A stretch of DNA of 42,055 bases, from positions 1 to 42,055 of the forward strand of contig JAGWWF010000028.1 of NCBI GenBank assembly GCA_018970445.1, given 5' to 3'. Shown here one piece after another: positions 6,236-30,539 of the stretch. A program made the translations under genes and the position numbers. This stretch comes from Alphaproteobacteria bacterium. GTDB taxonomy: Bacteria > Pseudomonadota > Alphaproteobacteria > Sphingomonadales > Sphingomonadaceae. The first letter of the stretch is position 1. Each line of letters starts with the position of its first letter. Below the pieces are notes generated by a model, which saw only the letters and a program-made list of their open reading frames with translations, was not told where the DNA came from and ran no database searches.

Positions 6236-6462
6236 GCCGCTTCCCCTTTCGCAAAATCGGCAAACAAATCAGGGCGCAACCGAACGCGGGGCACAGCGCC
6301 GCCAGTTTCCCGTTCGATCTTCACAGCCAGTTCAGCAGACGCGCGGAACCGCCCGGCCATGATATGGGACAGGTGCCCTTTGCTGATGCCCAGGGCCGCC
6401 GCCAGGCTGATGGCGGTTCGCCCTTCGGATTTCAGCCAATCCTGAATGCTGCTTTCACTCAT
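6232..6462 (-). CDS. Cro/YdaS-like HTH repressor, first gene of leftward operon
   Basis: The 76-aa protein starts at the ATG at 6462; the longer frame to 6546 crosses the operator region and is rejected. Residues 3-50 form a compact helix-turn-helix: IQDWLKSEGRTAISLAAALG, then ISKGHLSHIMAGRFRAS. The pattern of alanine-glycine turn and SxxHLSxI recognition helix is typical of Cro/YdaS-type phage repressors. It faces the CI-like gene across a 91-bp divergent control region, as cro faces cI in lambdoid phages (left-right mirrored here). It likely binds the GTTGT-N7-ACAAC operators to favour lytic growth. Confidence 0.8.
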   Translation of the reverse strand: MSESSIQDWLKSEGRTAISLAAALGISKGHLSHIMAGRFRASAELAVKIERETGGAVPRVRLRPDLFADFAKGEAA

Positions 6463-6469
6463 GAGGTAT

Positions 6470-6486
6470 GTTGTGTCTGAAACAAC
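6470..6486. promoter_or_regulatory. Operator copy 1, overlapping the leftward early promoter
   Basis: The site GTTGTGTCTGAAACAAC has 5-bp inverted arms around 7 bases and is identical to 7702-7718. On the minus strand a -35 TTGACG lies at 6498-6493 and the operator covers the spacer and the likely -10 (CAACAT at 6473-6468, spacing 19, weak). Occupancy would block transcription of the Cro-like operon. Confidence 0.7.
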
Positions 6487-6503
6487 TTCTGCCGTCAAGA
6501 CAG

Positions 6504-6553
6504 GTTGTGTGGCGACTGCTCGACTGCCGCCGCCGCTTTGGCACACTCACAAC
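6504..6553. promoter_or_regulatory. Degenerate operator halves before the CI-like gene
   Basis: A lone GTTGT half-site lies at 6504-6508 and an ACAAC half at 6549-6553, directly against the repressor ATG. The 17 bp ending at 6553 match the operator only in part. They may be weak autoregulatory sites. No ribosome site precedes the ATG at 6554, so the message could be leaderless, as known for lambda cI made from PRM. Confidence 0.3.
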
Positions 6554-6898
6554 ATGCGCAAGACTCGCCTTGGTCCGCAGTCCCTTCGCCCGAACTTCAT
6601 TCGGCAATGGCGGGAATATCGCGGCTACAGCCTGGAACGCCTTGCCAGCATGGTGCCGATGGACAAGGGCAATTTGTCCAAGGTCGAACGTTCAATCGCG
6701 CCCTACACCCAACCCATGCTGGAACGCCTGGCCGATGCCTTGATGACCGAACCGGCCAGCCTATTGATCCGCGATCCGTCCGATCACAGCGGCATTTGGT
6801 CGCTGTGGGATCAGGCCAAGGTGGGCGAACAACAACAGATCGTGCGCTTGGCCGAAGCGGTGCTTAGCTTCCGCCACCAGACTGGCACCGATGGTTGA
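6554..6898 (+). CDS. CI-like HTH repressor without peptidase domain
   Basis: The 114-aa protein has a Cro/C1-type HTH at about residues 13-65: FIRQWREYRGYSLERLASMV, then PMDKGNLSKVERS and a third helix pair ending ALMTEPASLL. The remaining 45 residues form a short helical tail, too small for the LexA/CI-type S24 self-cleavage domain. It therefore cannot be induced by RecA-stimulated autocleavage. It diverges from the Cro-like gene and is followed, with a TGATG overlap, by the WYL-TerB gene. It is the likely master repressor binding the three operators. It lacks a visible ribosome site and may be leaderless. Confidence 0.8.
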   Translation: MRKTRLGPQSLRPNFIRQWREYRGYSLERLASMVPMDKGNLSKVERSIAPYTQPMLERLADALMTEPASLLIRDPSDHSGIWSLWDQAKVGEQQQIVRLAEAVLSFRHQTGTDG

Positions 6899-7674
6899 TG
6901 CTGGATTTTGCGCCTTGGGAATTGATTGTCCCTGACGAAAAGTCCCGTCAGCTGTTGTTGAAGGGCGCGCTGGGCAGCCGGCCACGCTCCCGCGTTCCAC
7001 CCGGCCGGTCACCTGCCGCCGGCGCCTGCACCCTGCCCGATTGCAACGTAGCGCCGGGCCGCATCGCCGGCCGCGAACTCTATATCGTCTACGAAGATGC
7101 CCGCGGCTGCGAAACCGAACGGGGCATCACCCTGCGGCACATCACCCCGCACCCGGCCGGGCAGCATCTGGTGCACGCCTTTTGCCACGAACGGTTTGCG
7201 CCGCGCGCTTTTCGGGCTGATCGCGTGGTGGAATGCTATGACCCCGAAACCGGCGAGCAACTTGATTTCCCAGCTTTGCTGGCCGGCATGATGCGCCGCG
7301 ATTGGCAGGTTGACCGCGCCGATCTGGAAGATTTTGTGCGCGTGCTGGTGTTCATGGCCTATTGTGACGGCCGCTTGGCAAGCGAGGAAGTGGGCGCCAT
7401 CGATGATTGGCTGTCGCGGTTCGTGCTGCGACTTGATGGCACAGATCAGGATTTCGAACAGGCCCAGCGCTTCGCGCGCAGCGCCGCCATTGAGGGCATC
7501 GACTATCTGGCTGCCCTGCGCCGGTTGACCCAAGGCAGCAACGCTGCCGCTGTTTGCCACCTCGCCATTCAGGCCCTGCAAGACGTGGCCGAAGCCGATT
7601 TCGAACTTTCCACCGAAGAAGCCAACTGGCACGCCGTTGCCATGCGGACGATCAGGCGCGCCGCGATGTTGTAA
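6898..7674 (+). CDS. WYL-like and TerB-like domain protein, partner of the repressor
   Basis: The 258-aa protein starts at ATG 6898, sharing one base with the repressor stop. Residues about 55-120 resemble a WYL ligand-sensing domain: LYIVYEDARG, RGITLRHITP, then LVHAFCHER and FRADRVVEC. Residues about 145-255 resemble the TerB helical domain, with LVFMAYCDGRLASEEV followed by helices. WYL domains are known as regulators that sense nucleic acids or nucleotides, and WYL-TerB fusions occur near DNA-repair and defence genes. Encoded in one transcript with a repressor lacking an induction domain, it may be the sensor of the lysogeny switch. That role is inference. Confidence 0.65.
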   Translation: MLDFAPWELIVPDEKSRQLLLKGALGSRPRSRVPPGRSPAAGACTLPDCNVAPGRIAGRELYIVYEDARGCETERGITLRHITPHPAGQHLVHAFCHERFAPRAFRADRVVECYDPETGEQLDFPALLAGMMRRDWQVDRADLEDFVRVLVFMAYCDGRLASEEVGAIDDWLSRFVLRLDGTDQDFEQAQRFARSAAIEGIDYLAALRRLTQGSNAAAVCHLAIQALQDVAEADFELSTEEANWHAVAMRTIRRAAML

Positions 7675-13534: not shown

Positions 13535-13881
13535 TGGCCACGCGCGCTGCCTTGCCATGCTTCACGGTGGCCCAGCTTGCCGAACGCTGGGCTTGCCACC
13601 GCAGCCATGTCTATCGAATGATAGATCGCGGGGAAATAACGCCCTTCTATGTCGGCACGCTGGCGCGCATCCATGCCAGCGAAGTGGAGCGCATTGAATG
13701 TCCGAAGCCCCTTTCAGCATCCAGCGCTTCCGCACCGGATGGGCCGTTGTCTGGCGCGACGGCGACGGCACACGGCGGCGTCACCGCCTCTACGCGCCCG
13801 ATCGGCTTGGGGCAGAGGCGGAAGCCCGCAGGCGATGGCAAGCCGGCGACGGTGCTGCCTGGACGGTGGGGCGGGCAGTGA
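13534..13881 (+). CDS. xis: Excisionase-like HTH protein (MerR/HTH_17 type)
   Basis: The 115-aa frame starts at ATG 13534. Residues 10-55 form the excisionase-type winged helix: FTVAQLAERWACHRSHVYRM, IDRGEITPFYVG, then LARIHASEVERIE. It would bend DNA at attP to direct excision. The conserved part ends by about residue 58, and the rest (60-115) is low-complexity and overlaps the integrase reading frame for 184 bp. This tail may be an out-of-frame by-product with no function. The position directly before the integrase supports the role. Confidence 0.75.
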   Translation: MATRAALPCFTVAQLAERWACHRSHVYRMIDRGEITPFYVGTLARIHASEVERIECPKPLSASSASAPDGPLSGATATAHGGVTASTRPIGLGQRRKPAGDGKPATVLPGRWGGQ

Positions 13882-14720
13882 CAGCCTATATCGACGCGCG
13901 CGAAGCCGAAGGCATCGCCACAGCCCCCCGGATGCGCGACGCCTGGAAGGCCATGAAAGCCCTGTGGCAGGACGTGCGCCCCGGCGACATAGATGAGGCC
14001 ATGGCGCGCGGCTATGCCCGCCAGCGGGCCAAGGCAGCAGCAACAGTGCGCTATGAGCTGGGGCTGATCGGCCAGGCGCTGCGCTGGGCTGAAAAGCAGC
14101 GCCACATTGAGCGCGCGCCCACGATATGGCTGCCAGCCTTGCCGCCACGCCGCGAACGCCACCTGAACCGCGAACAGGTGGATGCGCTGATTGCCGCCGC
14201 CGTAGCGCCGCACGTGCGCCTTTATATGGAAATCGCCTACGCCACCGCCGCGCGCCCGCAGGCGATTCTTGATCTGCGCTGGGCACAGGTGGACTTCGCC
14301 GCCGGCCTGATCCGCCTGAACCCCGATGGCCGGGTGCAGACGGCAAAGCGGCGGCCCACCGTGCCGATGACGCCGCACCTTGCCCAGGTGCTGGCCATAG
14401 CCTTTGAAGGCCGCGCCTGTGATTTTGTGATCGAACACGGCGCACAGCCGATTGCCAGCATCAAAAAAGGCTTTGCCGCCGCCGCCACCCGCGCCGGCCT
14501 TGATGCCACCCCCTACACGCTGCGCCACACGGCGGCGGTGCACATGGCCAATGCCGGCGTGCCCATGTCCGAGATCGCCAGCTACATGGGCCATGCCGAC
14601 AGCCGGATCACCGAGCGCGTCTATGCCCGCTACCTGCCCGACTATCTTCGCAGCGCCGCCGCCGCGCTTGATCGAGGTTCACGCGAACCTTTGGCCCTTG
14701 TCGTAAAGGGCGCGGCGTGA
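13698..14720 (+). CDS. int: Tyrosine-family integrase
   Basis: The 340-aa protein has an N-terminal arm-binding strand region (FSIQRFRTGWAVVWRDGDG), a SAM-like core-binding domain (about 55-150) and a C-terminal catalytic domain. Catalytic residues are R186 (ATAARPQAIL), K217, R276 in YTLRHTAA, H299 in YMGHA and the nucleophile Y309 in ERVYARY. The usual histidine of HxLRH is tyrosine 273, a known variation. It would recombine attP just downstream (14742-14786) with a host tRNA-Val gene. Its start is buried inside the excisionase frame, so the two are likely translated in a coupled way. Confidence 0.93.
   Translation: MSEAPFSIQRFRTGWAVVWRDGDGTRRRHRLYAPDRLGAEAEARRRWQAGDGAAWTVGRAVTAYIDAREAEGIATAPRMRDAWKAMKALWQDVRPGDIDEAMARGYARQRAKAAATVRYELGLIGQALRWAEKQRHIERAPTIWLPALPPRRERHLNREQVDALIAAAVAPHVRLYMEIAYATAARPQAILDLRWAQVDFAAGLIRLNPDGRVQTAKRRPTVPMTPHLAQVLAIAFEGRACDFVIEHGAQPIASIKKGFAAAATRAGLDATPYTLRHTAAVHMANAGVPMSEIASYMGHADSRITERVYARYLPDYLRSAAAALDRGSREPLALVVKGAA
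14675..14690. promoter_or_regulatory. Inverted repeat left of attP
   Basis: AGGTTC-ACGC-GAACCT lies in the integrase 3' end, 52 bp before the attP core. It shares the GGTTCAC...GAACCT pattern with the palindrome at 14882-14900. The pair could be accessory-protein or integrase arm sites. This is inference from symmetry around attP. Confidence 0.35.
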
Positions 14721-14741
14721 TGGCTAAGTCATTGGGGAAAA

Positions 14742-14786
14742 TGGTGGACGCGGCAGGGATTGAACCTGCGACCCCTGCGATGTCAA
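14742..14786 (-). other. attP: attP core: 3' half of tRNA-Val(GAC)
   Basis: Read on the minus strand, these 45 bases are a tRNA 3' half: anticodon loop TTGACAT (anticodon GAC), stem strand CGCAG, variable GGGTC, T-arm GCAGG-TTCAATC-CCTGC, acceptor strand CGCGTCC and ACCA. The 5' strand of the anticodon stem (GCGTG) does not pair with CGCAG, so homology stops at the anticodon loop and the tRNA is incomplete. Integration into a host tRNA-Val gene would restore its 3' end. It starts 22 bp after the integrase stop, the usual place for attP. Confidence 0.85.
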
Positions 14787-14881
14787 CACGCGGGCCGGCT
14801 GTCGCTTCCATCGTGGATCGTCGCAACTGTCTGGAACAAATGTCGCTTTGTTCGCCTGCTGTTCCCGGTGTGTCGCATGGC

Positions 14882-14974: not shown

Positions 14975-15006
14975 CGGCAGGCAGCGGCTGAATGTGTGGG
15001 CGCTGC

Positions 15007-15558
15007 ATGATCTGGCGGCTTTTGCATAGGGCCGATCCGGCAGCGTGTGCCATTGCTGACCGGCACTATAACCGGCAGAATATTGGCTCGCCGCAATTCG
15101 TGCCACCGGGTCGTCGCCTTGTGCTGACAGCCGAAACCCCGACCGGCAAAGCGCTGTGGGTCACGTCTTGGCCCTTAGCTGAATACGTTCGGCACGCATG
15201 GCCAGGCGCATGGGTGTGCAGTGCGTTTCGGAACGAAGGTGCGGGTTTGGCCAGCGAAATGATTGTTCAGGCGATCGCCGCAACCGTGCATCGGTATGGG
15301 CCACCGCCCGAACCGCACCGCATGATCACGTTTTTGGATAGTCGGAAGGTGCGTCCGATCAAGGTTCGTGGCCGCGATACCTTTGGCCGGTGCTGGGCAC
15401 TTGCCGGCTTTGAGCATGTAGGGTGGACGGCGGGCGGGCTGATGGCGTGGCAACTGCGTGCAGATCGTGTTCCAGCGCCTGAACCGGCGAAAGGACAGAC
15501 TTTGATGTTGTTTTCGATGGCCCGCGAAGCTGCCGCGCTGTGCGGCAAAGGAGAGTGA
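15007..15558 (+). CDS. GNAT-like phage protein, possibly Mom-related
   Basis: The 183-aa protein starts at ATG 15007 (or ATG 14992) with only a weak ribosome site. It has CAIADRHYNRQ near the N-terminus, FVPPGRRLVLTAE, ALWVTSWP, AWVCSAFRNEG, a helix, MITFLDSRKV and a C-terminal GRCWALAGFEHVGWTAGGL. The last block resembles the acceptor region of GNAT acyltransferases and of Mu Mom, which modifies adenine in DNA. Related proteins occur in many phages without known function. It lies alone right of attP and inside the 33-bp repeats, as morons often do. The Mom link is a guess. Confidence 0.6.
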   Translation: MIWRLLHRADPAACAIADRHYNRQNIGSPQFVPPGRRLVLTAETPTGKALWVTSWPLAEYVRHAWPGAWVCSAFRNEGAGLASEMIVQAIAATVHRYGPPPEPHRMITFLDSRKVRPIKVRGRDTFGRCWALAGFEHVGWTAGGLMAWQLRADRVPAPEPAKGQTLMLFSMAREAAALCGKGE

Positions 15559-15598: not shown

Positions 15599-15627
15599 TT
15601 GACGCATACCACAACGTTGTATATATC
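15599..15627 (+). promoter_or_regulatory. Strong promoter with palindromic operator for the 15676-16391 unit
   Basis: TTGACG (15599-15604) and TATATC (15622-15627) are separated by exactly 17 bases. The spacer holds the perfect 10-bp palindrome ACAACGTTGT at 15611-15620. This is the best sigma-70 promoter seen in the window and stands in an AT-rich island. A dimeric repressor bound to the palindrome would block it; the HTH protein at 16035 is the obvious candidate. Its arms resemble the immunity operator arms in reverse order, so repressor cross-talk is also possible. Confidence 0.7.
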
Positions 15628-15675
15628 CACTTCATCGGCAGCGGGATTGGCCCGCCGCCAGATGGGAGAGCCCAC

Positions 15676-16038
15676 ATGATCGAAGCCACCGCCCTTTTTG
15701 CCGCCGCCCGCGCCGTCCGCTATGCCGGCCCTGCCAATTGCGATGCCCGGATTTCGGCCTTGATCGCCGCCCGCGCCGCCTTCCGCGCGGCGGCCGGCCC
15801 GTCCTACATTCTGTCAGACACGATGAATCGGATTGAAACTGCCGCGCGCGGCAACCGCCAAATCGATCTGGCCGCCCAGTTCGTGGCTGCCCAGGCCGCC
15901 AGCGATGCCATGGCCAGCCGCGCGGCCCGTCTGGCGGCGATTTCCGCCAGCGATGCCAAGGTTGCGGCCAAGCTGGCGGCCGGTGGCCGTGCTCGCAAGA
16001 ACGCCCTGCGCGCCCTTCGCGCCGATGGTGCCTTGTGA
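15676..16038 (+). CDS. Small helical protein of unknown function, candidate anti-CRISPR-type moron
   Basis: The 120-aa product starts at ATG 15676 with GGGAGA eight bases upstream. It is rich in alanine and predicted by eye to be nearly all helix (AARAVRYAGPANCDARISALIAAR and later repeats), with a basic C-terminus (GRARKNALRALRA). No family is recognised. It is the first gene behind a strong promoter and is followed, with a GTGA overlap, by an HTH protein. That layout matches known acr-aca operons, but nothing in the sequence itself shows an anti-CRISPR function. Confidence 0.7.
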   Translation: MIEATALFAAARAVRYAGPANCDARISALIAARAAFRAAAGPSYILSDTMNRIETAARGNRQIDLAAQFVAAQAASDAMASRAARLAAISASDAKVAAKLAAGGRARKNALRALRADGAL

Positions 16039-16391
16039 CCCTTTACGCGGCCTGCCTGCGCCGCCTTGGCCTTTCGCTGGCCGAGGCGGCTGCCCTGCAC
16101 AACGTGCGCCGTGATACAGTGGCCAGCTGGTCAAATGGCCGAAACCGCCCGCCGGCCGGGGCGTGGGATGATTTGCGGCGTCTGGAAGCGGCGGTGATTG
16201 ATCGTAGCGAGGCCATGCGCGCCCGGTGGGCCGATGTGCGCGCCGATGTGGCGATTGGCCTGCGCGATGCCGATCTTGCCGGAACGCTCGCCGCGGCGGA
16301 TTTTGTGCTGAACCTGCCGGCCGGGGTGGCGGTGACAGATGAAGAAACGGAAGCCGTGCTGGCAGCCCGACGGGCGCGCCAAGGCATTTAA
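16035..16391 (+). CDS. HTH regulator, Aca-like (118 aa, GTG start)
   Basis: The GTG at 16035 overlaps the previous stop by 4 bp. Residues 3-45 contain a helix-turn-helix: LYAACLRRLGLSLAEAAALH, then NVRRDTVASWSNGRNRPP, similar in order to DUF1870/YdiL and Aca2-type repressors (LSxxEAAxxIG...SWxxGRxxPP). The C-terminal part is a helical region probably used for dimerisation. As the second gene of a two-gene unit whose promoter holds a palindrome, it is likely an autorepressor. Whether it is a true Aca protein is unproven. Confidence 0.7.
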   Translation: MTLYAACLRRLGLSLAEAAALHNVRRDTVASWSNGRNRPPAGAWDDLRRLEAAVIDRSEAMRARWADVRADVAIGLRDADLAGTLAAADFVLNLPAGVAVTDEETEAVLAARRARQGI

Positions 16392-17660: not shown

Positions 17661-17956
17661 GCTCCAGCCCCCTGCGCGTGCACGTTGGCCTCTGCCCCAT
17701 CGCGGTTCAGCTTGAACGACCAATTGCGCACCAGATTGCGACTCACCAAGCCCAGCACCACCAAGCCGATGATGGCCATGCGTGCCCAATCGGCCTGCAC
17801 CAGCGCCTCGATCACGCGCGGCTGCAGCGGCGGTGGCCAATTGGTTGCGCGCAAAAAGCTGGTGTGCACAGCATGATCCCACAGCATCACGGCAGTGATC
17901 GCCACCATCTGCACGCGATATATCCACGCGGCCCAGGCTTCGGCTGGCGGCTTCAT
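17657..17956 (-). CDS. Holin-like membrane protein (99 aa)
   Basis: It starts at ATG 17956 with an ATGA overlap to the endolysin stop. Two hydrophobic segments are seen at about residues 14-34 and 57-74 (ARMAIIGLVVLGLVSR), followed by a positively charged and hydrophilic tail. Size, two membrane passes, charged tail and location between endolysin and spanins fit a class II type holin. No specific family is recognised. Confidence 0.7.
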   Translation of the reverse strand: MKPPAEAWAAWIYRVQMVAITAVMLWDHAVHTSFLRATNWPPPLQPRVIEALVQADWARMAIIGLVVLGLVSRNLVRNWSFKLNRDGAEANVHAQGAGA

Positions 17957-18477
17957 GCCTCGTTCCCATCGGTGATCTGTGTTGCCGCGTTTGCCCATGG
18001 CGCGGGCCCCGCCATGGCAGCACCAGGCGGCCAGCGAAACGCGGTGAGGCGCGCGCGCGGGAAGCGGCGGATGTTCACCGCGTTGGCCTGATTCCCGCCC
18101 AAAATGTCCAGATCGCCGTTTTCATACACCGCCACCACGAAACCCACATGGCCACCGCCGGCGCGGGTGAACACGGCAATGCTGCCCAGCGGTGGCCGGG
18201 TGCCAGTGCTGGAAATCGCTTCACCCCAGCCAGCCCACCAGATGGCGCGCGCCCCGATCGCTCCGCGCGGCGGCCGAAACCCGGCAATTGCCATGCAGCT
18301 GGCCACAAAGGTGCCGCACCACGGCGTTTCATCATCGTGTACCGCAATGCCAAGCCAACCCTTGGCCCGCTGCACCATCCCCATCACGCCGGGGCTGTGG
18401 CGCGGGCCGGGGATTTCCCGCACGCCAATCTGCGAACGCGCAGCGCGCAGCCACGGCGGATCAATGGGCAGGTTCAT
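17953..18477 (-). CDS. Endolysin, CHAP/NlpC-type peptidoglycan hydrolase (TIGR02594-like)
   Basis: The 174-aa protein starts at ATG 18477. Key blocks are AARSQIGVREIPGPRHSP near the N-terminus, ETPWCGTFVASCM with nucleophile C54, GSIAVFTRAGGGHVGFVVAV with H110, and DILGGNQANAV with N129, giving a Cys-His-Asn active site. These match the TIGR02594 family of phage cysteine hydrolases. It has no signal peptide, so it depends on the holin for release. It lies in the order endolysin, holin, inner spanin, outer spanin. Confidence 0.88.
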   Translation of the reverse strand: MNLPIDPPWLRAARSQIGVREIPGPRHSPGVMGMVQRAKGWLGIAVHDDETPWCGTFVASCMAIAGFRPPRGAIGARAIWWAGWGEAISSTGTRPPLGSIAVFTRAGGGHVGFVVAVYENGDLDILGGNQANAVNIRRFPRARLTAFRWPPGAAMAGPAPWANAATQITDGNEA

Positions 18478-18665
18478 GCGACCATCCTTTCGGGGTTTGC
18501 AGCCTTGGCCAGTGCCGCGGCCAGTTCGGCTTTGCGGGTGTGGATCAGGGGCGCCCACAGGCGTTTTTCTCGTTCCACCAAATGACGGATCGCAGCCGCA
18601 CGGGCCGCGCGGGCCAGCGCCAGCTGCTGGCGGGCGGCCGTCACGGTTTCCGGTTCATGCGTCAT
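18474..18665 (-). CDS. Small helical protein upstream of endolysin (63 aa)
   Basis: It starts at ATG 18665 and its stop overlaps the endolysin start as ATGA. It is almost entirely helical and charged (VTAARQQLALARAARAAAIRH, HTRKAELAAALAKAANPERM). It could be a lysis chaperone or coiled-coil structural part. No family is recognised. Confidence 0.65.
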   Translation of the reverse strand: MTHEPETVTAARQQLALARAARAAAIRHLVEREKRLWAPLIHTRKAELAAALAKAANPERMVA

Positions 18666-19099: not shown

Positions 19100-19599
19100 C
19101 GCGCCGCCGCCTCTGCCATGCCCGCGGCAAGCGCCACGCCAGCCAGACCAGCCCAGATACCCACAGGCCAAGGCCGATCAGGGGGGGCAAACCATCGTTT
19201 TCCGGGACCATTGGCCAAGCCTCCTGCGGCCAACGCCGCAATCTGTGCCCAGCCCCCGCCGGCAGTCCAGTTGAGATAATTCGCGATGCTGGCCGACCCT
19301 GATGCCCACACCCGAATGAGATAGCCGCCATCGATGACGAACAGCGCCAGATAGACAGCGCCGATTGCCACTTCGGCCGTGGCGCGCTCATCCCTCAACA
19401 AGCACGCCGCACACAGAAAATGGATGAACGCAAAGGCTTCGGCCGGATCAAGCCGGCCGGACGCGGCAACAGCGCCGTTGCACGCCGCCCATTCAAGCAG
19501 CATCACGCTGGCCGCCAGCCAAAACCCTCTGGCAGACATCGCGCCGGCCACCCCAATGGCCAGCGCAAGGCCCAGCCCATAGGCTTCAACCCCGGTCAT
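19096..19599 (-). CDS. Polytopic membrane protein (167 aa)
   Basis: It starts at ATG 19599, sharing one base with the upstream stop. About five hydrophobic segments are visible, including GLGLALAIGVAGAMSA, LAASVMLLEWAACNGAV, AFAFIHFLCAACLL, AIGAVYLALFVIDGGYLI and WAGLAGVALAAGMAEAAA. Two small late membrane proteins in a row before the endolysin are unusual; it might be a second holin or an exclusion protein. No family is recognised. Confidence 0.65.
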   Translation of the reverse strand: MTGVEAYGLGLALAIGVAGAMSARGFWLAASVMLLEWAACNGAVAASGRLDPAEAFAFIHFLCAACLLRDERATAEVAIGAVYLALFVIDGGYLIRVWASGSASIANYLNWTAGGGWAQIAALAAGGLANGPGKRWFAPPDRPWPVGIWAGLAGVALAAGMAEAAAR

Positions 19600-19841
19600 C
19601 AATCGTCGGCCGGTTTTGGCGTGGCGCTGAAGGTGCCCACTTCGATGCTGCCGGGCGGGGCGGTTTCGGCCACCTGTTGCAACCGGTGATGCAGCCGGCG
19701 CCACAGCACCAGGCCGCGCGCATCATCTTTGGCCGCCAAGTGGCGGCCCAGATCAGTGAGCATGCCGGCGATATCGGCCACATCCTGGGCATAGGGCGGC
19801 CGCGCCAGCCTGCACCTGGCCAGCATCCTGCGAACAAACAT
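19599..19841 (-). CDS. Small late protein of unknown function (80 aa)
   Basis: ATG 19841 has AAAGGAA at good distance. The N-terminus is basic (MFVRRMLARCRLARP), followed by helices (DVADIAGMLTDLGRHLAAKD, LWRRLHHRLQQVAET) and an acidic tail. No family is recognised. It sits between the tail fibre region and the lysis genes. Confidence 0.65.
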   Translation of the reverse strand: MFVRRMLARCRLARPPYAQDVADIAGMLTDLGRHLAAKDDARGLVLWRRLHHRLQQVAETAPPGSIEVGTFSATPKPADD

Positions 19842-19853
19842 CGGCAGTTCCTT

Positions 19854-20135
19854 TCAGTGGTTGATTTCGCGCGCCAGGTGCGCAGCGGCGGCGCGGCGGC
19901 AATGGTGCCAGCGCGCCCCATCAGGCAGGAACATGATCACATCGATCACCGGGGCGGCCACCTGCGCCCACCAGGCACCATCGGCCCGCCGCCGGCCGGT
20001 GACGGCCGACAAGGTTTCATCGGGATCGGGCGCAGGCGCGGCATCGATCAGGAACAACAGGCCCAACAACAGCGAGGCCAGAAGCTGCGAAGCGGCTGAA
20101 CCCACCGCGCCGGCCATGATGCCAATCCGGCGCAT
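19854..20135 (-). CDS. Small protein with one membrane segment (93 aa)
   Basis: ATG 20135 shares a base with the upstream stop. A hydrophobic stretch at about 18-31 (LLASLLLGLLFLIDAAP) could be a membrane anchor or uncleaved signal. The rest contains a second moderately hydrophobic stretch (VAAPVIDVIMFLP). No family is recognised. Confidence 0.6.
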   Translation of the reverse strand: MRRIGIMAGAVGSAASQLLASLLLGLLFLIDAAPAPDPDETLSAVTGRRRADGAWWAQVAAPVIDVIMFLPDGARWHHCRRAAAAHLAREINH

Positions 20136-27906: not shown

Positions 27907-28211
27907 GGCGGGGTGTCAACCGCTGGCAGCGCGGCACGGCACGTGGCGGCCTGCCTTTTCATGATTTCGATCTGCCAGTGCATCGAAATCACCTGTTTCT
28001 GTTCAATATGGTGCAGCCAGCGCAATCCTGTGCCCCAGGCCAGCAGGCCTGAACCGATTGCCAGCAACGGGCCGCCGGCACCCGTGCTGCCAAACGACAA
28101 CAGCACCCCCAGCACAAGCAACAACCACCCAGCCAGCAACTGCCATTTTCCATCCGGAATTTGCAGTTGCAGGCGGGGATCGCCGTGCGGATCGGGCAAA
28201 AGATCAGTCAT
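27897..28211 (-). CDS. Two-pass membrane protein between tail chaperone and tape measure (104 aa)
   Basis: It starts at ATG 28211. Two adjacent hydrophobic segments are seen (about 24-41, WQLLAGWLLLVLGVLLSF; and 47-64, GPLLAIGSGLLAWGTGL), with an N-terminal acidic region and a C-terminal helical tail. Tail chaperone and tape measure genes are normally adjacent, so a membrane protein here is out of place. It could be a moron for superinfection exclusion. No family is recognised. Confidence 0.65.
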   Translation of the reverse strand: MTDLLPDPHGDPRLQLQIPDGKWQLLAGWLLLVLGVLLSFGSTGAGGPLLAIGSGLLAWGTGLRWLHHIEQKQVISMHWQIEIMKRQAATCRAALPAVDTPPHP

Positions 28212-28220
28212 GCCCGCATC

Positions 28221-28933
28221 CTATCCCTGATCATCGCCGCTGTCATCATCCGCTTGATCGCGCAGGGCGGCGATGATTTCCTGTTCCACATCCGGCAACA
28301 CTTCGGCCAGCAGGGCGGCATCGGCACCCATGGCCTGGGCCATCATCATCACCGCGCCAAAATCCAGCCCGAACGCGCCGCCCATCGGGGCCACGCGCAA
28401 CTGGTTCTGGCAGGCGGTGACGATGTGCCAGATCAGTTCGCCAGCGGGGGTTTGCGGGGCGGCTTCGCTGTAGGGGCAGGCGGCGCATCGCCCGGCGGCG
28501 GCGGCGTTGCAGGTGAGCTGGCAATATCGCTGCCCGGCATCGCCGCCGTGCCAGTGCCACTGGGCGAGCCGGATGATGCGTTTTTTTCCCGATCCCGTTC
28601 ATACCAGGGCCGGCAATAGGCGATATCCAGCGCCAGAAACGCATCGGGATGCAGCAGGAATTGTTCCACGGTTTCGGGCGTGACCGGCACCGGGTTGCCA
28701 TCCGCATCGCCCACGCCTTCCCAATCCACCAGCCCGGCGCGCATCAGCGCCGCGCTCATCTGTTCGGACAGTTCCAGCGTGTCGGGCGCTTCATCGCCCT
28801 GCATGGCCTTGAACGCCAGTTCGCGCGCCTGGCGCACCGCGTGGCGGGTGATGGCGCGCATCCGCACCCGCACCCGCCCCTGCGGCAGATCAAGATCAAG
28901 CCATTCGGCTTCCGTGCCTGGCAGTTTAAGCAT
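28221..28933 (-). CDS. Tail assembly chaperone GT, made by -1 frameshift
   Basis: The frameshift product would be 237 aa: the first 118 residues as in G, then 119 residues from the -1 frame, which stays open from 28580 to the TAG at 28221-28223. The extension reads RIIRLAQWHWHGGDAGQRYC, a cysteine-rich stretch, then ELIWHIVTACQNQLRV, APMGGAFGLDFGAVMMMAQA and an acidic helix. This looks like real protein, unlike the low-complexity zero-frame tail. As in lambda G/GT, the T part would recruit tail tube subunits to the tape measure. There is no good independent start in the -1 frame. Confidence 0.8.
28433..28933 (-). CDS. Tail assembly chaperone G
   Basis: The zero-frame product is 166 aa from ATG 28933, overlapping the tail tube stop by 8 bp. 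Residues 1-118 are well ordered (EWLDLDLPQGRVRVRMRAIT, ETVEQFLLHPDAFLALDIAY). After the slip site (residue 118) the sequence is proline- and alanine-rich and ends KPPRKPPLAN. Together with GT it would bind the tape measure during tail assembly. The ratio of G to GT is set by the frameshift. Confidence 0.82.
   Translation of the reverse strand: MLKLPGTEAEWLDLDLPQGRVRVRMRAITRHAVRQARELAFKAMQGDEAPDTLELSEQMSAALMRAGLVDWEGVGDADGNPVPVTPETVEQFLLHPDAFLALDIAYCRPWYERDREKNASSGSPSGTGTAAMPGSDIASSPATPPPPGDAPPAPTAKPPRKPPLAN
28580..28586 (-). other. Slippery heptamer A AAA AAC for -1 frameshifting
   Basis: On the minus strand, codons 116-118 of G are GAA AAA AAC, giving the canonical A AAA AAC heptamer in frame. 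A seven-A run is striking in such GC-rich DNA. GC-rich sequence downstream may form a stimulatory structure. It links G to the -1 frame that extends to 28221. Confidence 0.82.
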
Positions 28934-30539
28934 AGCTGGGCACGTCGTTGATCAGCGTGACGGTCATGGCGCTGGCCAGCGCGCCCGATGCGGTGATGGT
29001 GGCCTGCGCCTGGATACCGCCGGGGCCTTCCACCGGGCGCTTGGTGCGCGGCAGGAACACGCGCGGCATGGCGAAGGTGAGGCTGTAGGGCCCGTTGACC
29101 CACCCGAACGACAGCGCCACCGGGGCCTGGTTGGTGGCATCATCCATAAGCACGGTATCGGCATAACGGGTGGTGATGTTGGCCCCCACCATCACCATGC
29201 CGGGATCGGCATCTTCGATGCGGCCATCGGCCTGGATGGTTTCCACTGCCTCCAGATTGTTGCTGAAGGTGATTTCGGCCTGCACCACGCTGCCCAGCGC
29301 CGCGCCGTTGCGGCTGATTGAACCGGTGGCCTGGGCAAAGCGGGTGGTGACGCCGGGGCTGAACAGTTGCGCGCCGGCCGCCGTGGTGGTGGTGGCGGTG
29401 GCTTCACCCTTGGCGATCAGGCCCACGGTGGCGTTCAGCAGGCCGCTGCGCGCCAGGCCGATGCGCAGCTGGTTGCCGCGGATGCCATAGTGCATCGAAA
29501 AGGCCGGCACATCGGGTTGGCCCAGTTCGATGCTGGCCGAAGGCAGCGCCAGCGCGCCCACGGTGAACACATGTTGCACCGTGCCGCCGTTGGCGCAGGT
29601 GACCGCCGCCGCTGCAGTGAGCGTGGCGTTGCTGGCCGGGCTGGAACTGGGCGCGGCGGTGACATAATCCGCCGCCGCGATGCCGGGCCGCACCAGCGCG
29701 AACAGGGTGGTGGCATTGGCGGCATAGGTGGCTTTCATGAAGGCTGGCAGGCGCGAGGCGTTCAGGAAGGCGGCAGTGGCGGTGAGCGTGGCGGCCAGAT
29801 CAGCGCCGATGTTCACCTGGTTGCCGCTGGCGCCGCTGGAGACGAAGGTGAGGGTTTGGCCGTTGATGCTGATGGTGGAATTGTTGGCCGGCTGATTGCT
29901 GAAGGCCCAGCGCGCCATGATGCGATCAACCGTGCCCACCAGCGCGGCGTTGCTGGCCGGGCTGGTGCTGGCGGCCAGGGTGAAGCCGTTGCCGGCCAGG
30001 CCGGCGTCATCCAGCGTGATGGTGAGATCGGGGCTGGCGGCGGCATAGGTGGCCAGCGCCACGCCGGCCACCGCCGATGCGTTCAGCACGGTGACGGCGT
30101 TGGCGATGGTGGTGGCCAGATCGGTGCCGATGTTGATCTGTGCGCCGCTGGCACCGCTGGCGACAAAGGTGAAGGCGGTGCCGTTGATGGTGATGGTGCT
30201 GTTCACCGCCGGCTGCGCCGCAAAGCGCAGGCGGGCCGTGGCCGCGCCGCTGGTGGTGGTGGTGGGTTGCCCCATCAGCAGGGCCAGCCAGCAGCCAAAG
30301 GAGCGCACGTCAACCGGCACGACCTGATCGCCGGTGTTGGTGGCGACATCATAGGTTGGGTCTTGCGGCTGCCGGCCCAGGCCCAGCAGATCGGATTCGA
30401 TCAGCGGACGTTCCTCGCCCAGCGCGCTGGACACCATCGGCAGGCGCAGATAACCCCGCGCGGCAGGATTTGGCGGGCTGCCATATGTGCTTTCCAACGC
30501 GGCAGCCTGCAGCGTGTTTGAACCAAGGCCACGGCCCAT
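28926..30539 (-). CDS. Major tail tube protein with duplicated inserted domain
   Basis: The 537-aa protein starts at ATG 30539 with AAAGGAAAT. The N-terminal and C-terminal parts (VPVDVRSFGCWLALLMG; FSMHYGIRGNQLRIGL; TFAMPRVFLPRTKRPVEG) look like a siphophage tail tube. Between them lie two tandem copies of about 100 residues (103-203 and 210-310) sharing STITING/STISING, GASGAQINIG/GASGNQVNIG and SPASNA. The insert makes it much longer than typical tube proteins (200-350 aa). It probably decorates the tail surface and may bind carbohydrate. Six copies per ring would be displayed. Confidence 0.85.
   Translation of the reverse strand: MGRGLGSNTLQAAALESTYGSPPNPAARGYLRLPMVSSALGEERPLIESDLLGLGRQPQDPTYDVATNTGDQVVPVDVRSFGCWLALLMGQPTTTTSGAATARLRFAAQPAVNSTITINGTAFTFVASGASGAQINIGTDLATTIANAVTVLNASAVAGVALATYAAASPDLTITLDDAGLAGNGFTLAASTSPASNAALVGTVDRIMARWAFSNQPANNSTISINGQTLTFVSSGASGNQVNIGADLAATLTATAAFLNASRLPAFMKATYAANATTLFALVRPGIAAADYVTAAPSSSPASNATLTAAAAVTCANGGTVQHVFTVGALALPSASIELGQPDVPAFSMHYGIRGNQLRIGLARSGLLNATVGLIAKGEATATTTTAAGAQLFSPGVTTRFAQATGSISRNGAALGSVVQAEITFSNNLEAVETIQADGRIEDADPGMVMVGANITTRYADTVLMDDATNQAPVALSFGWVNGPYSLTFAMPRVFLPRTKRPVEGPGGIQAQATITASGALASAMTVTLINDVPSYA

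Follow-up and report, generated by a model that had tools for sequence, protein, structure and literature searches.

A two-gene unit of a temperate phage is, as read from its sequence, very probably an autorepressed operon of the Aca2-like kind, that is, a small gene followed by the gene for a helix-turn-helix (HTH) protein, here P0002. The product of the first gene, P0001, is likely to be an anti-defence protein, and the chance that it acts against Cas9 in particular we would place a little below even. The best explanation of the whole, held here with slightly more belief than disbelief, is that a temperate phage carries an acr-aca-like, self-regulating operon with P0001 as its anti-Cas9 payload. 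An acr-aca-like layout had indeed been claimed for this DNA in a preliminary description, and it gains support from the Aca2-like character of the HTH protein, from the hypervariability of the gene in front, and from covariation of the operator with the recognition helix.

The mechanism would be as follows. A strong promoter of the phage, which was found as a circle, presumably fires early. P0002 then would accumulate as a dimer with the Aca2 fold, bind a 17-bp palindrome between the -35 and -10 elements and, while sitting on that operator, shut its own promoter. By analogy with Aca2, it may bind as well the two-hairpin 5' leader, blocking ribosome access to the Shine-Dalgarno sequence of hairpin II. 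The payload gene before the HTH gene appears to be swapped freely between phages, and here that payload is P0001, which would let the phage survive a host type II-C Cas9 whose spacer 1 matches the phage perfectly. Comparison of sequences reveals the layout of the operon, its operator, the covariation of operator and helix, the leader hairpins, a predicted Aca2-like fold, the variable slot, the spacer match and a full-length cas9 gene.

Operons of acr and aca genes are already known. What is new here is a regulator family which the libraries searched recognise only in part, along with an orphan payload. Tentatively, P0001 could be the founding member of a new type of Cas9 inhibitor, a small and strongly basic helical protein that is rich in alanine and arginine, is without recognisable relative, and lets its phage live despite spacer 1. 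More widely, and equally tentatively, operator plus two-hairpin leader could be the mark of a group of anti-defence loci carried by phages, probably those of alphaproteobacteria. The payloads of the 35 loci fall into some 33 clusters, and control at both the DNA and the RNA level would come from Aca2-fold repressors whose helix and operator have drifted together. An orphan open reading frame (ORF) in this way becomes an anti-Cas9 candidate open to direct testing, and the assembly also contains the system that it would target. The signature of 17-bp operator, two-hairpin leader and Aca2-fold HTH protein would also index dozens of candidate anti-defence genes without a prior Acr sequence, and the dual control of DNA and RNA described for Aca2 may extend past the recognised Aca2 family.

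The unit within its phage genome

Table 1. Features of the two-gene unit and of its surroundings, in window coordinates.
Feature	Position	Strand	Basis and remarks
Tyrosine integrase of the phage	13698..14720	+	Pfam Phage_integrase 5.1e-21; upstream of the two-gene unit
att core, 55 bp	14735..14789	+	98% match to 3' part of host tRNA-Val(GAC), contig C38 54212-54266
Protospacer	14985..15015	+	31/31 match to spacer 1, C36 6380-6410; 3' flank CGGCTTTTGCAT
P0003	14992-15558		Single ORF between att and the two-gene unit; phrog_24928, function not assigned
-35 element TTGACG	15599..15604	+	Read directly; like element at same position in most relatives (by eye)
Operator ATACCACAACGTTGTAT	15606..15622	+	17-mer, arms 5/6; family consensus RTACAC-N5-GTGTAY
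-10 element TATATC	15622..15627	+	Read directly; 17-bp spacing from -35
Leader RNA hairpin I, GGCAGCGGG-ATTGG-CCCGCCGCC	15637..15659	+	Alignment, covariation, folding
Leader RNA hairpin II, TGGG-AGAG-CCCA	15663..15674	+	1 nt before ATG; Shine-Dalgarno-like purines in stem and loop
P0001, 120 aa, ATG start	15676..16038	+	Orphan; candidate anti-defence (anti-Cas9) payload
P0002, 118 aa, GTG start	16035..16391	+	Aca2-like HTH protein, candidate autorepressor
CHAP-domain gene	17953-18558	-	Downstream of the unit; Pfam CHAP 4.2e-10

The window, i.e., the whole stretch of DNA analysed, is an entire contig of assembly G000, of 42,055 bases. Because 104 bases are common to its two ends, it appears to be a phage genome in circular form, which is the best reading of it. 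The tRNA-Val(GAC) site on host contig C38 has 1.5-kb flanks without phage match, and thus is empty in the assembly; a second host match to the att core, on contig C27, is weaker (86-88%). The unit had been said to stand alone between attP and the lysis genes, which is nearly so. P0003 does intervene, however, and the identity of the downstream genes as lysis genes is plausible rather than certain: the CHAP-domain gene has as its best PHROG tail lysozyme (5.6e-29), then endolysin (1.7e-5), and a Pfam holin match after the unit is weak and below cut-off. The ORF of P0003, which carries most of the protospacer, has relatives in Micromonospora, Salinibacter and Paenibacillus phages.

Elsewhere in the window, at 6446-6898, is another HTH gene (HTH_31, 2e-8, a Pfam match over cut-off). 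It is followed by the gene for a TerB/WYL protein, and together these (6446-7674) are possibly the main repressor region of the phage. Two pairs of small plus-strand ORFs, at 19420-20099 and 28161-28951, lie within the minus-strand structural module; with coding-like GC content by codon position and no Pfam match at 0.01, they are further moron candidates.

As had been described, the stop of the 120-aa ORF overlaps the GTG of the 118-aa HTH ORF (TGA at 16036-16038, a 4-nt overlap). P0001 is taken as a real gene because of its GC content by codon position, because a conserved leader ends at its ATG, and because the 4-base overlap is common to the related locus L027. The predicted protein is 35% alanine and 12% arginine and is very basic (pI 11.3), with a predicted structure of long helices in a poor model (pLDDT 67), too poor for structure search. 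Relatives among INPHARED phages were none, and in IMG/VR none confirmed; in 149 genomes of the bacterial family there were, along with its own, 13 weak alanine-rich matches, the best of which (E 3.0e-4) lies in a stop-containing frame. The best PDB match, at 0.82, leaves P0001 without significant match to any solved protein, and from Pfam came only DUF6257 at 0.031, below cut-off. Over these searches P0001 has no convincing homologue. Among the small genes of the phage P0001 is a natural candidate for the payload.

Operator, regulator and leader

The consensus-like promoter with 17-bp spacing that had been described is present (Table 1). The palindrome placed between its elements is there as well, i.e., ACAACGTTGT, a 10-bp perfect palindrome at 15611-15620, but it is off-centre, and the conserved operator is instead the 17-mer of Table 1; as operator core, ACAACGTTGT was dropped once the promoters of relatives were aligned. 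By simple arithmetic, a perfect 10-bp palindrome alone is weak evidence, as one occurs at about 1 in 1024 positions, that is, some 40 times per window. What raises the window's palindrome above chance is its conservation in related promoters. Of 35 such promoters, 25 have a best 17-bp palindrome whose arms match perfectly (6/6), versus 0.8 expected from dinucleotide shuffles, and 24 of these 25 perfect palindromes are found at one common place, 43-60 bases before the ATG; that of L027 is also perfect once the operator place is fixed. Within the window, the operator is the best match to the consensus by one letter (9/12 versus 8/12 for the next, among the best 12 matches listed), and in a consensus-free palindrome test another, chance 5/6 palindrome equals it. 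The operator lies where Aca proteins are expected to have theirs, as an inverted repeat within the core promoter, a rule given in PMC9410906.

Operator and protein, moreover, vary together. Where residue 30 of the recognition helix is K (27/27 loci), both arms carry C at half-site position 6, and where residue 30 is other than K (5/5 loci) that position is other than C (Fisher 5e-6 over 32 usable loci, a statistic which ignores relatedness of loci and which concerns a residue picked post hoc, after viewing of the alignment). L030, L044 and L098 were dropped from this test. The window is among the five non-K30 loci, with A30 and operator ATACCACAACGTTGTAT. A like test of residue 24 gave 0.056, which is not significant. 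Going by these alignments, an operator letter and a recognition-helix residue thus change together among the HTH relatives, and this covariation indirectly supports P0002 as a candidate autorepressor of its own promoter. That residue 30 might correspond to R30 of Aca2, a residue discussed in PMC8434428, was an idea dropped upon hhalign placing Aca2 R30 against D27.

P0002 has, clear in its predicted fold, the N-terminal HTH that is looked for in an Aca protein, and its gene is the second of a short operon. In IMG/VR there is one relative, L027, with 50% identity over residues 1-116, and INPHARED phages gave two matches, one in a Bradyrhizobium phage. As the one named phage among the relatives, the latter suggests that the host of the window's phage is an alphaproteobacterium. 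A three-row HTH profile led to 18 loci and a 21-row profile to 32, many of which are common to both. As single query, P0002 weakly matched 10 others of the 149 family genomes (best 1.3e-5), and yielded no plasmid match and no confirmed genome-contig match. An HTH profile matched 21 of 385 genomes of the class at E<=0.001, the strong matches besides its own being L048 and L049. Open-licence literature yielded no paper describing this HTH family.

The preliminary description had suggested a profile search of the 118-aa protein against Aca families, and with a profile of its relatives Aca2 is the best solved match. Among 177,635 distinct PDB sequences, the 21-row family profile has as top match Aca2 (7ezy, E=4.8e-4), as second 7xi5 (Aca10, 7.8e-4), and three more Aca2 sequences at 0.19-0.20; P0002 alone gave no Aca match there. 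The AlphaFold model of P0002 (pLDDT 91.8, pTM 0.77) has near-full-length Foldseek matches with SO3848 (E 0.005) and with five Aca2 entries (E 0.011-0.077), none of its matches falling below E 0.001. TM by query length is 0.62-0.65 for the Aca2 entries and 0.59 for YdiL (rank 47, E 0.78). In PMC8434428, YdiL and SO3848 are the only structures aligning with both Aca2 domains, and the topology of Aca2 is given as HTH, long helix 4 and small C-terminal domain. The P0002 model has this same fold, i.e., that of the PF08965 family. Pfam Aca2_YdiL (PF08965) itself matches 6/19 members of the HTH family, best 2.2e-4, and does not match P0002 at E<=1, the other Pfam HTH matches of P0002 being below cut-off. 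As there is no Foldseek match below 0.001, no Aca found in the PDB by P0002 alone, and no PF08965 match, P0002 is described here as Aca2-like rather than as Aca2, i.e., as a protein predicted to act like Aca2 without being filed as such. The converse case, a non-Aca HTH protein unconnected with the palindrome, is not what emerged, given Aca2 as top match, an Aca2-like fold, and covariation of operator with helix.

Between the -10 element and the ATG, alignment of related loci yields two hairpins in common. With a covariance model built on 27 rows, this leader is recovered (E<=0.05) from 34 of 41 sources, among them 8 outside the training rows, and is missed in seven (L028, L048, L049, L080, L089, L096 and L102). 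Among these misses L049 scores 0.15 and L048 0.32, the latter having been one of the training rows. When 36 matches are aligned by fitting, two-sided changes occur at 9 of 12 leader pairs, and the covariation score reaches 0.325, whereas shuffling gives 0.108 and sliding no more than 0.088; fitting and relatedness both favour the 0.325. Free of any alignment, a stem of at least 4 Watson-Crick pairs within the 24 bases before the ATG is seen in 29/35 leaders, versus 7.1 expected. These stems include AGGT/ACCT, AGGC/GCCT, AGGA/TCCT, TGGG/CCCA, TTGG/CCAA and GTGG/CCAC, and most enclose, by eye, a purine-rich, Shine-Dalgarno-like loop.

Folding of six leaders as single sequences gives a mixed outcome. 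L027, L029 and L084 have hairpin II in their folds of lowest energy; it is absent from those of the window, L040 and L078, in which the Shine-Dalgarno side pairs upstream instead. In the window, the competitor of hairpin II is a lengthened hairpin I. The 51-nt window leader folds better than 192/200 shuffles and a 96-nt window stretch more poorly than 186/200. Such mixed folds may indicate a switch, or else a weakness of the RNA argument. Rfam at its own thresholds has no match for the window, L040 or ZF40 leaders. Of the 149 family genomes, 7 match the leader model at E<=0.01, and six other places found there were dismissed by eye as chance, only the window and L105 being leader operons; among the 385 class genomes, only its own genome matches at E<=5e-4.

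Similar leaders are also seen ahead of HTH-like genes of other kinds. A two-hairpin leader in L030 (4715-5394, E 0.0087) precedes a 62-aa ORF and then a 134-aa HTH-like gene, and one in L087 (1442-2068, E 0.062) precedes a 53-aa ORF and then a 137-aa HTH-like gene with no solved relative. These extra HTH-like genes are of another family, and lie upstream of the same phage's Aca2-like operon. In L105 (G027 C1, from 275491 on) a leader match at E 3e-5 is followed by ORFs of 126 and 99 aa, the third gene encoding a 119-aa HTH-like protein of a third type, with another promoter palindrome visible by eye.

The payload slot, the matching spacer and other readings

In the 35 loci with readable operon, HTH proteins are similar at E<=1e-3 in 595/595 pairs, but payload proteins in only 13/861, counts which include related contigs and which rest, for HTH proteins and payloads alike, on E-values from a small database. 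The 42 payload proteins form 33 clusters. In L027 the promoter, leader and HTH gene are kept and the payload alone differs, and the payload position sometimes is occupied by two genes. The gap between payload and HTH genes is -4, -1 or +2 bases in 23/34 loci. The gene before the HTH gene, on this comparison of sequences, is a hypervariable slot. That aca genes recombine with differing acr genes is called very common in PMC9765179, and for Aca2-like proteins PMC9410906 gives 3% (35 of 1223) as having upstream acr genes.

The set of 35 left out repeats or copies (L032, L041, L069, L071, L073-L076, L079, L081, L085, L086, L088, L092, L093, L099) as well as L028, L049, L080, L089, L096 and L102, for which no leader start was set, some being cut short and some lacking a leader match. 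It retains two near-identical pairs, L094/L095 and L100/L101. The 17-aa payload listed for L077 probably is not a real gene, and L090 is without payload directly before the HTH gene.

No known Acr was found among the 18 of 42 payloads run against libraries (Pfam, PHROGs, PADLOC, NCBIfam, PDB), function checks having covered 10 in Pfam, 10 in NCBIfam and PHROGs, and those of L072 and L046 in the PDB; nor was an Acr found upon comparing the L072 payload and one second-operon gene with INPHARED. One 226-aa payload frame matches phrog_8020, function not assigned. A small payload family recurs in 5 of the 42, as first or second genes of L033, L035, L072, L077 and L087, several with an EVRGLHTKTG-like motif, and its L072 member is without PDB or INPHARED match. 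In L035 (1773-2045) a 90-aa payload is weakly similar to endonuclease and Holliday-junction resolvase families.

On contig C36 the host encodes a 1044-aa, full-length Cas9 that contains HNH and RuvC domains. In the PDB it is matched best by 8ja0 (a 1082-aa Cas9, 2.2e-65), which we take to be of the Nme type; the residues that we take to be catalytic are present in this alignment. Cas1 was found by family search, and an array of six repeats and five spacers lies on C36, such that cas9, cas1 and array together make up a type II-C locus. An anti-repeat-like stretch is visible by eye upstream of cas9, the automatic search finding none at its threshold. Comparison of the C36 repeat with the Neisseria repeat, which presumably orients the array, and a terminator-like end together suggest that spacer 1 is leader-proximal, thus newest. 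Its 31-mer is found, at <=3 mismatches, only in its own phage and own array among 298 family genomes, and the other four C36 spacers have no window match at <=6 mismatches.

It is due to this perfect match of the host's Cas9 array to the phage that P0001 is an anti-Cas9 candidate. A phage coexisting with a perfect spacer is, according to PMC6990116, a situation from which several Acrs were found, with mutated PAM or target, or mutated or unexpressed cas genes, being other escapes from self-targeting. Depending on the PAM, the perfectly matching protospacer may not be cleavable by the predicted C36 Cas9. Attempts at deriving that PAM gave 0/14 spacers of a congeneric array with window match at <=5 mismatches, and two own spacers, slightly shortened, without exact IMG/VR match.

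A reading which keeps the same Aca2-like operon, but in which the target of P0001 is a different defence (restriction, abortive infection) or its role some other accessory one, is unlikely by our estimate. The phage then would have withstood its spacer through lack of a valid PAM, silent cas genes or escape of the free circle. With 33 clusters among 42 payloads, a single common target is itself improbable, P0001 is strongly basic, and Aca2-like regulators, by PMC9410906, often are without known acr neighbours. Against this stand the host's full-length type II-C cas9, its cas1 and array, the 31/31 match of spacer 1 to this very phage, and the precedent of self-targeting leading to Acrs (PMC6990116). 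Somewhat unlikely, and bearing solely upon the RNA portion of the mechanism, is that the leader hairpins are generic stability elements, with P0002 acting on DNA alone. Hairpin II being outside of the lowest-energy fold in three of six leaders, the window's included, and the same leader preceding other HTH types (L030 4715-4770, L105) would fit that; the two-sided compensatory changes and the stem found at this place in most leaders do not, nor does the similar folding of the ZF40 leader or the RNA binding which, by the title of a 2024 report by Birkholz, an anti-CRISPR-controlling HTH protein is said to display.

Control of lysogeny or recombination is improbable. P0002 here would be a phage repressor, or an excisionase-like or Xer-activating factor (VC1465 family) at att, with P0001 as its partner. 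The unit does lie about 0.8-1.6 kb from att, beyond the integrase, and the NCBIfam VC1465 model (NF040522) matches 18/21 HTH family members (best 5.5e-6) and, weakly, P0002 (E 0.0041, 17.2 bits versus a cut-off of 70). The phage, however, has its other HTH gene at 6446-6898, the relative in the Bradyrhizobium phage likewise has a second HTH regulator, the operator in relatives sits in the unit's own promoter, and a partner gene that is swapped is unlike a recombination cofactor. More improbable still is a toxin-antitoxin pair, i.e., P0001 as toxin and P0002 as antitoxin-repressor. Two small overlapping genes, the second for an HTH protein, would suit such a pair, and some members of the HTH family weakly match toxin-antitoxin-related HTH models (MqsA family, 4/21; YdaS, 3/19), but the first gene varies by locus and sometimes is two genes, P0001 belongs to no such family in Pfam, PADLOC or NCBIfam, and the predicted fold of P0002 is Aca2-like through its C-terminal part.

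Comparison with known systems

The nearest point of reference for the Aca2-like operon is Pectobacterium phage ZF40 (JQ177065), of which gp31-gp30, labelled hypothetical in the record, presumably are the acrIF8-aca2 operon. There too a small payload is followed by an HTH gene of similar fold, with an inverted repeat before the -10, and the leader likewise has two hairpins, the first with loop AUGG and the second with a Shine-Dalgarno sequence (12/200 shuffles fold as well). In sequence, however, the ZF40 HTH protein is distant from the P0002 family (15% identity in hhalign, E=9.8e-6, probability 82.5), its operator is, by eye, TGTTCGC-N4-GCGAACA rather than RTACAC-N5-GTGTAY, and its genes are separated by a 10-base gap rather than overlapping as in the window. 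The family RNA model misses the ZF40 leader with default filters and, unfiltered, matches it weakly (7.5 bits, E 0.02, 321-base stretch). At 116 aa, ZF40 gp30 has the length given for Aca2 in PMC8434428.

As to the Aca2/YdiL family more broadly (PF08965; Aca2 7b5j/7ezy, YdiL 1s4k, SO3848 2ox6), the predicted P0002 fold is alike over nearly its full length (TM by query length 0.55-0.65), and sequence likeness with solved members is weak, at 15-23% identity in Foldseek, it being the family profile, and not P0002 itself, which is recognised. Aca10 (7xi5) has an HTH domain like that of P0002 (rmsd 1.0 over 44 columns), but is of only 65 aa, the likeness thus being limited to the HTH. On the payload side, type II-C anti-CRISPRs are known as AcrIIC1-5. 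These would share their target class with P0001, the host Cas9 being closest to PDB entries of the Nme type, whereas P0001 lacks significant sequence match to any solved protein. For RNA control, Aca2 reportedly is the HTH protein of the 2024 work, binding RNA as well as DNA and acting through stem-loops of the leader. In the P0002 family, single-sequence folds are mixed, the two-hairpin leader covaries and the ZF40 leader is alike, such that control of the Aca2 type, acting upon RNA as well as upon DNA, may by analogy apply here too.
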